A stretch of DNA of 64,000 nucleotides from Bryobacter aggregatus MPL3 (GTDB taxonomy: Bacteria; Acidobacteriota; Terriglobia; Bryobacterales; Bryobacteraceae): positions 1,674,001 through 1,738,000 of the forward strand of contig NZ_JNIF01000003.1 of assembly GCF_000702445.1 (NCBI RefSeq), in the 5' to 3' direction. Numbering within the stretch: position 1 is the first letter of the stretch; each line of letters opens with the position of its first letter. The notes under the pieces were generated by a model. The model was given only the letters and a program-made list of their open reading frames with translations, had not been told where the DNA came from and ran no database searches. Positions 55,486-61,622 of this stretch are shown piece after piece. Both the position numbers and the translations under genes were made by a program.

Positions 55486-58400
55486 TCACCTCACCCAAAC
55501 CCCAATGCGCGCCACTGACCTCTCCCCGGCGACACTCACTGCGATGGGCAACAGTCCGGCTGGCAGTTCCTGGCCGAGCAGAACATTGATCTGTACCGCC
55601 CCTGCTACCAGTCCCGGAGCTCCGCCGGCATATAGCACTTGCGACTTGCGGCCCTCAATCGTCACTTCCACCGCGCCCTCGAGACTGGAAGCAGCGCTGG
55701 CAATCGAACCATCCTCCGCCGCCGGACGGAGTGTCCCTCCACCAGTCAGATACAGCACCACCACCTCGCCTGCACGTGCCGGATTCGCCTCCGTGTTCAC
55801 GCTGCCATTCTGATTTAGAATCGCCCCAGCACCCTCACCGCTTCCGTTCACACTGAACAGTCCCGGTTTCGCGGCAACCACTCCGGCGACCGTAGGAGCA
55901 CTTTGTACACCGTCCTGCTCTACCACGATCCGAACCGCGTCGCGACCCGCCAGTCCAAACGGAGCAATCGCGCTCACTTGTCCTTTGCTCGCATACAGCA
56001 GCGGCGCGGCCACGCCATCGAACAACACTCGAGTTCCCTCAATCGACCGACTTACAGGATTGCCGGTCTTTAAGTTGCCGCCCATGCGCTCGCCAAAAAG
56101 GACGAGGATCTCGCCTGGCGCCACCCCACGCGCTTCATAGCTGGCGGAACTCATAACCGCATCGAGAGCAGGTCCTCCACCAGTATCGATACTGAGCTGA
56201 TAGACATGGCGCACGCTACGATCGCCACTTGTCGCCTGCACGGTGATGATCGTGTTGCCCGCAACATTCGGAGTGCCATGCAGCAGACCCGTAGCATCCA
56301 GTTGCAAGCCGGCTGGCAGCTGTCCACCTGCTACTTGCCAGACACTATTCGGCAAATAACTCAATTGCTGCCGATAAGGGCGGCCCACTGAAGCACCGGC
56401 CAGGCCATAAGGCAATACGGGCGACTCCCCATCCACCCGCAGACTGACAGCGCGTGTCACCACTCCCTGTGCGATGACGCAGCGTACTCCGAAGGAGTAT
56501 AGGCCCGAGCTCTCCGGTCTCCCACTGAATTCTCCCTGTCCATCGAGCTGCAATCCTGTCGGCAACTGTCCCAACGCGTTCGCGTTACTCGTACAGGAAC
56601 TCAGTTGCAATCCCGACAAGTTCCGCAGCGAAGCCTGATAGCTTCCTCCCACGGTGGCACGAGGCAGTAAGATCGCGGGCAGCACCTCGATCTGAGTCTC
56701 CAGGTCCCCACGCCCCTGGTCCGCATCGGTCACCTCCACCACAAACTTGTAGGTCCCCGGCGCCAGCACCACTCCTCGCAACAGTCCATCACTGCCAAGT
56801 GTGGTTCCGTTCGGTAACGTCCCAGACTTTACACTCCACCGCATGGGGCTCCGGCCACCCTCGGCGGAGAATGCAAATTGATACAGATGCTGTAACAATC
56901 CATCTGGTGGCGCAAAGACACTGACGCGCGGTCTCGATCCCACTTGCAGACTCAGGCTCGCATTCGCAATCAAGCCCACGGCATCTGTGACGCGAATGGA
57001 AATCGGGTAAGTTCCCGCCTGCGTCGGCGTGCCGGACAAGATACCTGCAGTGGATAAGCTCAGCCCAGGTACAGTCGCTCCGATCCATTGATACTGATAA
57101 GGGGAAATGCCTCCACTCACGCTGATGCTTTGCTGATAGGCTACACCGATCACGCCCGCGGGCAACGCCGTAGTTGTGATTGTGATCGGTGTCCCGGTTA
57201 CCGTCAGAGTGAGCGCAACTTGCGCGCTCTTTTGCAAACCATCGCGGACTGAGGCGGCAAAGTTGAAGCTGCCCCCCTGCGTCGGCGTACCGCGAATCTG
57301 TCCGTCGCTCGAGAGCGACAAGCCTTGCGGCAAAGTACCGGATTGCAGCGCGAAGACGAAAGGCTCGGGGCCGCCAGTCGCTACTAGCTTCGTCTGATAG
57401 GCCTGGCCCAGCGATGCGGTCGGCAGGCTACTGGTCTCGATCCGCAGGCTCGGCGCTTCGATATCGAACTTAAAGGCTTGTGAGATCTGTGTTTCAAAGC
57501 CGTCGTACGCGGTGATCACAAAGGATAGGCTGCCCGCTCGAAGTGGCACTCCGGTCATCAGTCCTTTGGGATCAATCTGAAGTCCCATGGCGAGCAAGGC
57601 CACGCTCGAGTCTGTCTGCCCGAATCTGGCTGCGCTTACATCGCCGTAGATCTCGAATTGAAATTGATATGGGATCCCGACAAATGCTTTTGGCAACTGC
57701 GTACTCTTGAATCCAAATGGCTTCTCGAAGACATTGATCTGAAACGTGTGGCTCACCGTATCGCTATAGGTTGCATCGCTGCACTGGATCTGGACCTCCA
57801 TAACTCCGGTTGTTGCGGGCGTGAAGGTGACCTCAAATTTCGGAGGCACCTGCGTGATGAGAAAGTCTCTTGGAAGGGACGCAGTCAACGCCTTGCAACT
57901 GTAATATGGCACGCCTCCCGAAAGGAAGAACGCAAATCGGAAAGGCTCGCCCTTTGCTGCTCCACCGTAGGGGAAGAGATTCATCTTTAAGCCCAGGTCG
58001 TCGATATTGAGAGTGACTGGTCCCGAGGCCGTGGCGCCAAGCGCGTCCCGCAACTGCACTTGAAAGGTAAAGCTGCCCGCGGTGAGTGGGGTACCCGATA
58101 CCAACCCGCTATTCGACATCTGCAGACCTGACGGAAAGTTGCCGCCGATCACTGAGAACGTATAGGGAGTTTGACCGTAAACACCTTGAAGCTGACCCTC
58201 ATAGGGTTGATTCCGTACTCCTTTGCCTAAGAACTGGGTCGAAAGTTGTGGCTGGCTCCGAGGCGAAATCTTGATCGTGAACTGCTGGGTGTGTTCGTTT
58301 CCATCGGAATCAGACACTTTTAGGGTGACCGGATAACTGCCTGCGACTGTTGGTTCGCCAAAGAAGCCAGCGCCTGCTGGCGGGATCCTAGAAAAGTACA

Positions 58401-58881
58401 GCCCAGGCACGCTTCCGCTGAGATGCACGATCTCATAAGGGGGGGCTTGCGTGGATTGCCCATTCACCCCGCCGTTGTAGGGAACACCCACCACGCCATC
58501 CGGGAAGGTCTGACGATCGAACCGCACTTGATCTGCACGAACCTGGAAGTAGATGCTTCGCGTCACACTGGCTCTTGTAGCGTCTTCAACACGGACACCA
58601 AGCTGGGTATAAACGACGGCGTAGCTTCCGGTTCCGCTCAAACGACCATCAACACTCAGCGAGTAGCCGGGAGTGGCCAAGCCAGATGTGATCTGAAACT
58701 TATAGGGCGGCGTTCCGCCTTCGACAGCAAGCTGTTCGGAATAGTACTGTCCCACTCTCGCGTCGGGCATACGATCTGTGAGGATCCGTAGTTCGGCCCC
58801 ATGGGCGCAAAGCGTTCCGAACATGGAGCAAATTACAACGAAAAAATAACGCCGGAACTGCACGTGTGCTAGATCAATCAC
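55486..58881 (-). CDS. large secreted Ig-repeat protein with TIGR03437 C-terminal domain (paralogue)
   Basis: A 1131-residue protein. Signal peptide RRYFFVVICSMFGTLCAHGA, then about ten Ig-like repeats with LPxGLxLxxxGxxxGTP (some degenerate), then a TIGR03437-type domain (DAVMSSASYEARGVAPGEILVL to the end). It begins with GTG 58881; a GTG at 58863 would remove six residues. It is a paralogue of the gene at 46193-49291 and points the opposite way. Upstream DNA (58882-58960) is AT-rich and probably holds its promoter. Confidence 0.86.
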   Translation of the reverse strand: MIDLAHVQFRRYFFVVICSMFGTLCAHGAELRILTDRMPDARVGQYYSEQLAVEGGTPPYKFQITSGLATPGYSLSVDGRLSGTGSYAVVYTQLGVRVEDATRASVTRSIYFQVRADQVRFDRQTFPDGVVGVPYNGGVNGQSTQAPPYEIVHLSGSVPGLYFSRIPPAGAGFFGEPTVAGSYPVTLKVSDSDGNEHTQQFTIKISPRSQPQLSTQFLGKGVRNQPYEGQLQGVYGQTPYTFSVIGGNFPSGLQMSNSGLVSGTPLTAGSFTFQVQLRDALGATASGPVTLNIDDLGLKMNLFPYGGAAKGEPFRFAFFLSGGVPYYSCKALTASLPRDFLITQVPPKFEVTFTPATTGVMEVQIQCSDATYSDTVSHTFQINVFEKPFGFKSTQLPKAFVGIPYQFQFEIYGDVSAARFGQTDSSVALLAMGLQIDPKGLMTGVPLRAGSLSFVITAYDGFETQISQAFKFDIEAPSLRIETSSLPTASLGQAYQTKLVATGGPEPFVFALQSGTLPQGLSLSSDGQIRGTPTQGGSFNFAASVRDGLQKSAQVALTLTVTGTPITITTTALPAGVIGVAYQQSISVSGGISPYQYQWIGATVPGLSLSTAGILSGTPTQAGTYPISIRVTDAVGLIANASLSLQVGSRPRVSVFAPPDGLLQHLYQFAFSAEGGRSPMRWSVKSGTLPNGTTLGSDGLLRGVVLAPGTYKFVVEVTDADQGRGDLETQIEVLPAILLPRATVGGSYQASLRNLSGLQLSSCTSNANALGQLPTGLQLDGQGEFSGRPESSGLYSFGVRCVIAQGVVTRAVSLRVDGESPVLPYGLAGASVGRPYRQQLSYLPNSVWQVAGGQLPAGLQLDATGLLHGTPNVAGNTIITVQATSGDRSVRHVYQLSIDTGGGPALDAVMSSASYEARGVAPGEILVLFGERMGGNLKTGNPVSRSIEGTRVLFDGVAAPLLYASKGQVSAIAPFGLAGRDAVRIVVEQDGVQSAPTVAGVVAAKPGLFSVNGSGEGAGAILNQNGSVNTEANPARAGEVVVLYLTGGGTLRPAAEDGSIASAASSLEGAVEVTIEGRKSQVLYAGGAPGLVAGAVQINVLLGQELPAGLLPIAVSVAGERSVARIGVWVR

Positions 58882-59050: not shown

Positions 59051-59434
59051 TTACTCGCCTACATAGGCAATACAGTCGATCTCCACTTTCATCGTCGGAT
59101 TTGCAAACCGGCATCCGATCGTTGTCCTTGCCGGCCGGTCGCTGCCAAAGAACTCGACATAGACGGCGTTCATCGCCGCAAAGTCGTTCTCATTGGCCAG
59201 ATAGACATTCACCTTCACCACTTGTGCGAGCGTCGCGCCCGAACCCTCAAGAATCCGCTGCACATTCTGCAGCGTCAACCGAGTCTCGTGTGCAATATCG
59301 CCAAAGCTGAATTCGGCGCTCGCCGGATCCACGGAAGCCTGTCCCGAAACAAATACGAATCCACCCGCCTTGGTCGCAAGGGAATACGGATTCTTCGGCA
59401 CCGGCATCGTTGCAGGAAAGATGTGTTCGATCAT
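59051..59434 (-). CDS. ridA: RidA family enamine/imine deaminase
   Basis: A 127-residue RidA/YjgF protein that clears reactive enamines made by PLP enzymes. The substrate-binding Arg is in RPARTTIGC and the glutamate in VEIDCIAYVG; GFVFVSGQASVDP is also typical. It begins two bases... directly beside the NYN-LOTUS gene end (59436) in the same direction, so the two may be cotranscribed. Confidence 0.92.
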   Translation of the reverse strand: MIEHIFPATMPVPKNPYSLATKAGGFVFVSGQASVDPASAEFSFGDIAHETRLTLQNVQRILEGSGATLAQVVKVNVYLANENDFAAMNAVYVEFFGSDRPARTTIGCRFANPTMKVEIDCIAYVGE

Positions 59435-59435
59435 G

Positions 59436-61118
59436 CTATTCGGTCTTCCGCTTGCGAGTCCGGCCCGTGGCCGTCGTCGTGCTGCTGGCAGCCTTCTTCG
59501 CGGCCGTCTTGCGCGGCGCGCGCGTCGTTGCCTTCTTTGCCTTCACCGGCGGAGGATTCGGCTCCACAATGCTCGGCTGACCTTCCACATAGGGCTGGAT
59601 CTCGTCGTACTCGCTGTAGAACTCTTCTTCCTTCTTCACCTTCGGCGCTGGCGGCGGGAAGAACTCGCGGCCCAGGTAGACCACCAAGCCCCGCTCATCG
59701 TCCTTCTTCAGCTTCACGACACCCTTGTTCTGCGAGAACTCGAGGAATTCCTTGAAGCCCGGGAAGCCATACGAAGCCGAATCGAAATTCGGATGTTCCG
59801 CCACCATCCACTGCGCCAGGTCACCCGGCTCGACGCCGTCGCCCATCTCCATCTCGTAGCGATGTGCTTCGAGTGCATCGCGCAACAGCGGCATTGCTTC
59901 GATCGGCTCCGGCAGAGGCTTTGCATTCGCGCCACCACGCCGTTCGATCGTCAGCTTGCCGCCGGAGCCATGGACATCGATCAGCTCAAGCTTGGCCAGC
60001 TTATCGATAAAGTCACTGAAGCTCGAAGCTCCAAAGCCGCGCTCGTGGAAGGTCGGATCCAGTTGCATCATGGTGCTCTTCAGCAAACCAAGCTGTGCCT
60101 GGACACCGCGCCGTTCGAGCGTTTGCAGCGAACGTTCCACCAGCGGCAGCGCCGCATTCACTTCGAGCACCACCTTCGGTTCGCTCGATTGCTGCGGACG
60201 CAGTCCACCCTCAGGACGATCTCCCCGATTGCGCTCATCCCGGCGGCGGTCCCGCCGTTCCCAGCGGCTCTCACGGCCCTGCGGACGGTCCCCGAGCGGA
60301 GCACGGCTCTCGATCGGACCCCGATCCCCCAGCGGAGGACGGCTTTCAATCGGACCACGATCATTCAGCGGTGGGCGGCTCTCGATGGGCCCGCGCTCGG
60401 CGGCGGCCAGACGTTCGCCAGGAAGCCGTTCAATGCCACCTGTCGCGACACGATCTTCCACTACTTCGTCCCGATTCCGGTCGCCACGATCCCGGTCCCC
60501 ACGGCCCCGATCGCGATCGCCGCGATCTCTGTCGCCACGGCCGCGATCCCGGCCCTGGTCGCTCCGCTTCATCGAATCGGCGAGTTCCAGCTTCAGACGC
60601 TCGAGCGTCGGGCCATTCTCGCTGCCATCGACACGCGCGGCGCGGTCCATCAACAGATTTTCGTAGGCCACAAATTCGTGGCAATTGCTCTGGAGAATAT
60701 TCGAGGTGAAGGCTTTGCCGCCAACGACGTAGACCGTCTTGCCGTATTCCTTCAGTTTGTTGACGAGGGGGATGAAGTCGCTGTCACCGCTGATAATTGC
60801 GAAAGCGTTGACGTGGGTGTGGGTAAAGGCCATCTCGAGCGCGTCCAAGGCAAGATTGATGTCGCCACCATTCTTGTCCCCACGCGGGCTAGGTAGTCGT
60901 TGCACCATTTGCACGGCGTTTTCCGCCATTTGTCTTGCGGCGCCTTCTTGGCGTCCCCAGTTTGCGTAGGCGAATTTTGCAACGATGTCGCCCCGCTCTT
61001 TCAAAGCATCTAGACAAAGTGAGACGTCAAATTCGCGTCGCAACGTTGTCTTCAAACCAATTTCGATGTTGTCGTAATCGACGAACACCGCAATGTTCAG
61101 TTTATCTAGTAGAGGCAT
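59436..61118 (-). CDS. NYN-domain protein with Arg/Asp-rich linker and two LOTUS-like domains
   Basis: A 560-residue protein. Residues 1-155 are a NYN (PIN-like) nuclease domain: IAVFVDYDNIEIGLK with the acidic site, GDINLALDAL and ISGDSDFIPLVN carry the conserved aspartates. Residues 189-217 are an RD/RG-rich low-complexity run; 243-278 are three 12-residue repeats; 279-302 is very basic. Two OST-HTH/LOTUS-like domains follow (about 315-395 and 405-490), then a Lys/Thr/Ala-rich basic tail (525-560). NYN enzymes cut RNA and LOTUS domains bind RNA; a disordered RNA-binding RNase is inferred. Confidence 0.85.
   Translation of the reverse strand: MPLLDKLNIAVFVDYDNIEIGLKTTLRREFDVSLCLDALKERGDIVAKFAYANWGRQEGAARQMAENAVQMVQRLPSPRGDKNGGDINLALDALEMAFTHTHVNAFAIISGDSDFIPLVNKLKEYGKTVYVVGGKAFTSNILQSNCHEFVAYENLLMDRAARVDGSENGPTLERLKLELADSMKRSDQGRDRGRGDRDRGDRDRGRGDRDRGDRNRDEVVEDRVATGGIERLPGERLAAAERGPIESRPPLNDRGPIESRPPLGDRGPIESRAPLGDRPQGRESRWERRDRRRDERNRGDRPEGGLRPQQSSEPKVVLEVNAALPLVERSLQTLERRGVQAQLGLLKSTMMQLDPTFHERGFGASSFSDFIDKLAKLELIDVHGSGGKLTIERRGGANAKPLPEPIEAMPLLRDALEAHRYEMEMGDGVEPGDLAQWMVAEHPNFDSASYGFPGFKEFLEFSQNKGVVKLKKDDERGLVVYLGREFFPPPAPKVKKEEEFYSEYDEIQPYVEGQPSIVEPNPPPVKAKKATTRAPRKTAAKKAASSTTTATGRTRKRKTE
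60285..60392 (-). repeat. three 36-bp tandem repeats inside the NYN-LOTUS gene
   Basis: They encode GPIESRPPLNDR, GPIESRPPLGDR and GPIESRAPLGDR. A second, shorter-period repetitive stretch encoding RGDRDRG units lies at about 60470-60555. Such arrays are prone to copy number change. Confidence 0.9.
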
Positions 61119-61144: not shown

Positions 61145-61543
61145 TCAGGCGGGGATGTTCGCCGCACCGCGGATAAAGCTCACTACAGACTCCAGTGAAC
61201 TTCCCGGCTGGAAAACCGCCGCCACTCCCAACTGCTTGAGCTGCGATGCATCATCTTCAGGGATGATGCCTCCCACAACCACCAGCACGTCTGACATCTC
61301 ACGCTCTCGCAAGAGATTGAGCACCTTTGGCACGATTGCCATATGCGCGCCGGACAGAATCGACAGCCCGATCACCTGGACATCTTCATCCAGCGCCGCG
61401 TTGACGATCATTTCCGGCGTCTGACGCAAACCGGTATAGATTACTTCCATGCCGGCGTCGCGAAGTGCTCTGGCAATCACCTTGGCCCCGCGGTCATGAC
61501 CGTCGAGTCCAGGCTTTGCCACTAATACGCGTATGCGGTTCAA
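61145..61543 (-). CDS. stand-alone cobalamin-binding domain protein
   Basis: A 132-residue B12-binding protein like the small domain of methylmalonyl-CoA mutase. The cobalamin motif is complete: DGHDRG with His16, SILSGAH (61-67) and GGIIPEDD (91-98). It probably pairs with a separate acyl-CoA mutase large subunit, not in this window. The start TTG 61543 is nine bases after GGAGG; a long upstream frame antisense to the next gene is rejected. It ends 26 bp above the NYN-LOTUS gene, same direction. Confidence 0.88.
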
Positions 61544-61622
61544 GGCCAGACGCCTCCAGTATATGTCTTTGTGCCAGCCAGTGTGGTTCACCCTCGCCTG
61601 CCCCCACTCTACACTGGTACGA

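Follow-up and report, generated by a model that had tools for sequence, protein, structure and literature searches.

A probable RNA-cutting NYN-LOTUS protein of Bryobacter aggregatus with an arginine/aspartate-rich linker and a tail of opposite charge pattern

The minus strand of the window (the whole 64,000-nucleotide stretch of Bryobacter aggregatus MPL3 DNA analysed here) encodes a 560-residue protein in which an N-terminal NYN domain, an arginine/aspartate (R/D)-rich disordered linker containing tandem repeats, a pair of LOTUS/OST-HTH domains and a basic tail follow one another, and which is probably an RNA-cutting enzyme. The best explanation, fairly likely in our judgement, is that it belongs to the bacterial NYN/DUF88-OST-HTH family as a housekeeping-type RNase encoded once, on the chromosome, with the R/D linker serving as a tether. 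The gene is real, well conserved and widespread in the class to which B. aggregatus belongs. Its architecture is already known, and the linker is a family-specific feature that is of note mainly for a charge pattern opposite to that of the tail. The features of the gene are as follows.

59436..61118, minus strand: NYN-LOTUS open reading frame, 560 aa, ATG start and TAG stop
60663..61097, minus strand: NYN (PIN-like) nuclease domain, residues 8-152 (Pfam E 1.4e-31; VIA-align fold matches; conservation)
60168..60644, minus strand: R/D-rich disordered linker, residues 159-317 (low pLDDT; charge analysis)
60470..60552, minus strand: 36-bp tandem array coding for an R/D/G-rich repeat (TRF, 2.3 copies, score 110)
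60285..60386, minus strand: 36-bp tandem array coding for a 12-aa unit with GPIES and PLGDR (TRF, 2.8 copies, score 127)
59934..60167, minus strand: LOTUS/OST-HTH domain 1 (LOTUS1), residues 318-395 (OST-HTH 22.1 bits; pLDDT; fold match)
59664..59915, minus strand: LOTUS/OST-HTH domain 2 (LOTUS2), residues 402-485 (OST-HTH 26 bits; pLDDT; fold match)
59439..59663, minus strand: disordered tail, residues 486-560, an acidic stretch and then a basic end (charge-shuffle test)

Profile searches with Pfam recovered both domain types above their curated cut-offs: the NYN match (PF01936) scores 110.4 bits against a cut-off of 24.2 and covers profile positions 1-144 of 145, while OST-HTH (PF12872) is found in two stretches with a whole-protein score of 40.4 bits against 23.8 (E 2.6e-10). 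Scored singly, LOTUS2 lies above this cut-off and LOTUS1 just below it. TRF detected shorter arrays besides the two 36-bp ones, and these searches, together with the structure model, confirm the domain order that the first-pass annotation had read from the letters of the DNA. In a profile search of the whole genome, the single NYN match and both of the OST-HTH matches fall in this one protein. NCBIfam adds a match below its cut-off to TIGR00288, an uncharacterised NYN family, and one match at chance level. The protein thus shows the fusion of an N-terminal NYN/DUF88 domain with one or two OST-HTH domains that marks the family delineated by Anantharaman, Zhang and Aravind in 2010 (PMC2848206), and lacks the RRM domains or long LOTUS array of MARF1 proper, Pfam returning no RRM match and only the two OST-HTH stretches.

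An AlphaFold2 model built from a 51-row alignment has a mean pLDDT of 68 and a pTM of 0.37, for which reason the relative placement of the domains in it is not interpretable. Within the individual domains, both C-terminal regions model as LOTUS-type winged helices, as the first-pass annotation anticipated; pLDDT averaged over 10-residue blocks lies at 82-93 across the greater part of LOTUS1 and at 85-97 across that of LOTUS2. The linker starts with a predicted helix (residues 170-188) and is mostly below 50 at residues 199-311. Confidence in the NYN domain is mixed, with residues 52-81 below 50, perhaps because the alignment varies little there. In VIA-align comparisons the NYN domain matches VPA0982 (2qip; Z 13.4, rmsd 4.5, 139 aligned), which is also the sole significant PDB match by sequence, mouse MARF1 (5yaa_A; Z 12.8, rmsd 4.2, 129 aligned) and human MARF1 (6fdl_B; Z 12.0, rmsd 3.8, 121 aligned). 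LOTUS1 matches TDRD5 (3s93_B; Z 8.8, rmsd 2.9, 78 aligned) and the bacterial structure 2kpm (Z 8.4, rmsd 5.7, 85 aligned), and LOTUS2 matches TDRD7 (3rco_B; Z 8.9, rmsd 2.8, 77 aligned); further LOTUS matches are 2lh9 (Z 8.2) and the bacterial 2kzv. These matches bear out the suggested resemblance to MARF1 and TDRD proteins. However, other winged helices match LOTUS1 equally well or slightly better (Z 9.0-9.8), namely KAT6A (Z 9.8), SAMD1 (Z 9.2) and ZMYND11, and the KAT6A and SAMD1 structures were solved with DNA. That DNA-binding winged helices match best counts against the RNase reading, and the fold of LOTUS1 therefore does not decide between RNA and DNA.

Inspection of the NYN alignment allows the putative active site to be delineated. 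Of its 98 rows, 79 are proteins of the source-family type, and the remaining 19 belong to different families in the class; two partial matches at contig ends (L013 and L014) were excluded from the conservation and linker counts, and a weak match in family f2 (L123), which the NYN search did not recover, lies outside the alignment. D14, N17, D86, D92, D112 and D114 are identical in all 98 proteins, and D16 is kept in 94, with glutamate in the other four. The putative active-site aspartates among them are D14, D86, D92, D112 and D114, each of which has an aspartate opposite it in the alignment with VPA0982 (2qip). The aspartate conservation on which the first-pass annotation had made its reading depend is present throughout. 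The NYN domain of human MARF1 cleaves single-stranded RNA, and its acidic patch consists of Asp358, Asp426, Asp427 and Asp452, activity being strongly reduced in the 426/427 double mutant (PMC6294520). The D14-D86-D112 spacing fits this set, and a residue-by-residue correspondence may be inferred from the spacing and the 2qip alignment. Further, most invariant columns of the 51-row alignment fall in the NYN domain, and comparison with seven relatives gave a pN of 0.008-0.024 and a pS of 0.49-0.66 for this domain, with synonymous sites near saturation, and a pN of 0.18-0.32 for the linker core. Because several pairs have reached or nearly reached synonymous saturation, dN/dS was dropped in favour of pN and pS, which serve as a rough guide.

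The first-pass annotation had treated a bacterial NYN-LOTUS protein as a surprise, which it is not: almost all bacterial OST-HTH domains occur singly or duplicated behind a DUF88/LK-nuclease domain, a stereotyped bacterial architecture described in 2010, for which a standalone RNA-degrading enzyme was proposed and a link drawn to Limkain b1 (MARF1) (PMC2848206). Such proteins have been predicted RNases ever since that study (PMC2848206), and no experimental study of one was found in the literature searched. The B. aggregatus protein shares their N-terminal nuclease and duplicated OST-HTH domains and differs in its long R/D-repeat linker, which is not described in the portion of PMC2848206 drawn on here; a literature search on mixed-charge domains in bacterial ribonucleases listed a single review, on G-quadruplexes. 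Among animal proteins, MARF1/Limkain b1 shares the NYN fold and LOTUS domains, but in human MARF1 the LOTUS domains number eight and are accompanied by two RRMs (PMC6294520). The LOTUS fold is likewise shared with TDRD5, TDRD7 and Oskar, whereas the B. aggregatus protein has no Pfam match to Tudor or SGNH domains; bacterial LOTUS domains apparently do without the Vasa-binding C-terminal extension (PMC5458760). A strongly conserved family of this kind offers a route to the roles of LOTUS domains before germ granules.

As a housekeeping-type RNase, the protein would cut RNA, its presumed class of target, through a metal bound by the aspartate cluster of the NYN domain, with the two minimal LOTUS domains gripping the substrate; the LOTUS domains of MARF1 bind G-rich RNA (PMC10226599, citing Ding et al. 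2020). The near-neutral, finely alternating linker would act as an extended, soluble tether of tolerant length that separates the nuclease from the RNA-binding modules, and the charge-segregated tail, acidic and then basic, may add contacts to RNA or partners. Alternatively, the enzyme might be dedicated not to general decay but to the maturation of specific RNAs, such as 5'-end trimming of certain transcripts or of tRNA precursors, in the manner of the plant proteins MNU1 and MNU2. These and plant DNE1 likewise combine a NYN domain with two LOTUS domains, in matching types and numbers (PMC10226599, PMC9181182), and the very strong NYN conservation and single copy would fit a fixed substrate. 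The MNU proteins are mitochondrial and also carry OHA and putative WW regions, to which the B. aggregatus protein has no Pfam match. The distribution of the gene poses a difficulty for the maturation reading. At E <= 0.001, matches occur in 83 of the 151 genomes sampled from the class; among the 126 genomes of at least 90% completeness and no more than 5% contamination, 62 have a match and 64 have none, so that another processor would be needed in the latter. Such a maturation role is unlikely, if worth keeping in mind.

The search for relatives found 152, of which 80 were kept; the latter are acidobacterial, and many come from Bryobacterales or Bryobacteraceae. Within the source family (f1), the matches listed comprise the B. 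aggregatus genome itself, one more from its genus and 26 further genomes; at least one family genome (G029) is without a match, the listing giving another 48 non-matching genomes of the class sample as a total only. Families f8 and f9 carry a more distant form, with a NYN domain 37-45% identical to that of B. aggregatus, and the f9 proteins are about 250 aa long. In two f8 proteins (L116 and L117) the C-terminus is extended by several hundred residues, among which Ala/Pro/Glu stretches recur and RPRRRSSRSR-like units are found.

The gene neighbourhood provides a further point against the RNase reading. On the minus strand the gene for a B12-binding subunit is followed after 26 bp by the NYN-LOTUS gene, and a single base separates the stop of the latter from the ATG of a Rid/L-PSP gene:

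61145..61546, minus strand: B12-binding subunit of a CoA-mutase-type enzyme, start codon provisional (Pfam PF02310, E 5.3e-29)
59051..59434, minus strand: Rid/L-PSP protein, 127 aa (Pfam PF01042, E 1.2e-33)

Among those loci of the 80 relatives kept that have enough flanking sequence, an adjacent gene on the same strand codes for Rid in 56 of 75, for the B12-binding protein in 60 of 74 and for both in 43 of 70. In a further set (loci L085-L103, in which species may overlap with the first) the Rid gene is adjacent in 19 of 19, the B12-binding gene in 11 of 19 and both in 11 of 19. The corresponding counts for other-family loci are 0/18, 0/18 and 0/17 by blastp against the B. aggregatus proteins at 1e-8, the matching used throughout, which diverged neighbours could escape. 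A cluster of methylmalonyl-CoA mutase large subunits lies nearby in 22 family loci; it is the only cluster used, since the neighbour clustering was dominated by shadow ORFs. R103 of the B. aggregatus Rid protein lies in the PAR motif, which in Rid deaminases holds the catalytic arginine, and the residue aligned to it is arginine in 79 of 79 cases. The Rid protein also matches the PADLOC model PD-T4-2_B (E 2.8e-20, residues 10-124), which may reflect the shared Rid-type domain alone. PMC2848206 reports that bacterial OST-HTH genes are not consistently linked to any known genes of RNA processing; in the present case a linkage is conserved, but with genes of metabolic type, the mutase subunit and Rid, and in one family. 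Its metabolic type and its restriction to the source family make co-transcription with housekeeping genes as good an explanation as shared function.

The linker departs from what the first-pass annotation had called RGG-like. Its 159 residues include 37 R, 19 D, 16 E, 21 G, 3 K and one aromatic residue, with a charged fraction of 0.47 and a net charge per residue of +0.03; it has 14 RG/GR pairs and no RGG tripeptide, so that an RGG-type linker is rejected in favour of a mixed-charge one. The charges are finely mixed: kappa (custom script, usual 5- and 6-residue blobs) is 0.037, whereas shuffles average 0.142, and none of 100 shuffles was better mixed. The comparison of linker lengths proposed in that annotation yields 24-197 aa, with a median of 52, for the 79 family proteins, 53 of which have at least three RD/DR pairs; linkers of 146-197 aa belong to B. 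aggregatus (159) and to the full-length proteins most closely related to it (L004-L008 and L012). In the 19 other-family homologues the linker is 13-33 aa long, one of 70 aside, and none contains an RD/DR pair. This comparison indicates that the R/D expansion is found only in the source family and is longest near Bryobacter. Sixty-three family linkers measure 40 aa or more, and even mixing extends to 50 of them, which are better mixed than 95% of their shuffles, although tandem duplication of an R/D unit alone produces such mixing, and the rows in this and the following charge tests are related rather than independent, so that the counts are not probabilities. The well-mixed linkers include ones built of R/E units, for example L011 and L062. 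Such a length-variable, charge-balanced family forms a natural series for testing an alternating R/D linker in a bacterial RNase.

Nucleotide patterns for the repeat, searched with AGR arginine codons left aside, were compared with controls across the 5.75 Mb genome, matches elsewhere being counted in any reading frame. The longer DRGDRDR-coding pattern has one match, in the NYN-LOTUS gene (control 0); a shorter R/D pattern has one match in the gene and one elsewhere (control 1), and a DRDRDR-coding pattern has two, neither of them in the gene (control 1). The data support uniqueness in the genome for the longer pattern only. A genome-wide habit of R/D repeats was rejected.

The tail shows the opposite pattern. 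It is blockier than 95% of shuffles in all 79 family rows and better mixed than 95% of them in none. The B. aggregatus tail has a K/R-rich end, its last 36 aa having a net charge per residue of +0.33; across the family these 36 aa have a median of +0.31 and follow an acidic part with a median of -0.23. Seventeen of the 19 other-family proteins could be tested, two with short tails being excluded; 16 of these 17 tails are blocky, and the last-36 charge is at least +0.2 in just 11. Near-zero net charge was considered as a trait specific to the linker and rejected, the tail median being +0.037 against +0.067. Linker and tail hence differ by charge patterning and not by overall neutrality. A more ambitious reading, which we hold to be doubtful, would have a Bryobacterales RNase family in which two disordered regions of one chain acquired charge grammars that are opposite and conserved: a neutral linker of alternating R/D or R/E that resists both RNA and self-association, and a tail of acidic and basic blocks that seeks RNA; together these would form an RNase E-independent RNA-decay hub, tuned by linker expansion and sharing an operon with genes of B12-dependent mutase and Rid metabolism.

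The first-pass annotation proposed that the linker could form RNA condensates, so that the protein would be a scaffold or client resembling a bacterial RNA-degradation body. The linker is indeed long, disordered and arginine-rich, its longer coding pattern is single in the genome, and mixed-charge domains made up of R and D and rich in arginine collect in nuclear speckles (PMC9324279). Caulobacter RNase E, which organises BR-bodies, likewise joins an endoribonuclease, here a predicted one, to an arginine-rich disordered region (PMC10412687). However, its catalytic domain is different and its bodies are attributed to charge blocks (PMC10412687), whereas in the B. aggregatus protein the linker alternates and just the tail is blocky. 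Similarly, alternating D/R peptides did not phase-separate alone, whereas blocky ones both phase-separated and bound RNA; in cells, the alternating (DR)50 nevertheless still entered nuclear speckles, with positive net charge helping (PMC9324279). The near-neutrality, fine mixing, lack of RGG and single aromatic residue of the linker argue against condensation, as do the other-family homologues that work with short linkers free of RD/DR pairs, and the condensate reading appears improbable. Since published phase separation with RNA comes from blocky and not from alternating patterns, the linker of the housekeeping-type RNase is more likely a soluble, hydrated, neutral tether than a droplet-former, judging by these charge analogies; it may be recruited as a condensate client without driving condensation. 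On this evidence, the tail is the better candidate for RNA contact.

A role in defence against phages or mobile elements is highly improbable and was rejected, as the PADLOC match to a LabA-like NYN domain that would favour it (E 4.5e-7, residues 84-154) is weak and partial, and the gene is the chromosome's sole NYN gene, has metabolic neighbours, no defence partner seen adjacent to it, and a presence in most sampled family members. Elsewhere in the window, 55486-58881 encodes a 1131-aa protein with He_PIG (putative Ig) domains in five stretches, which is likely a surface or secreted protein.
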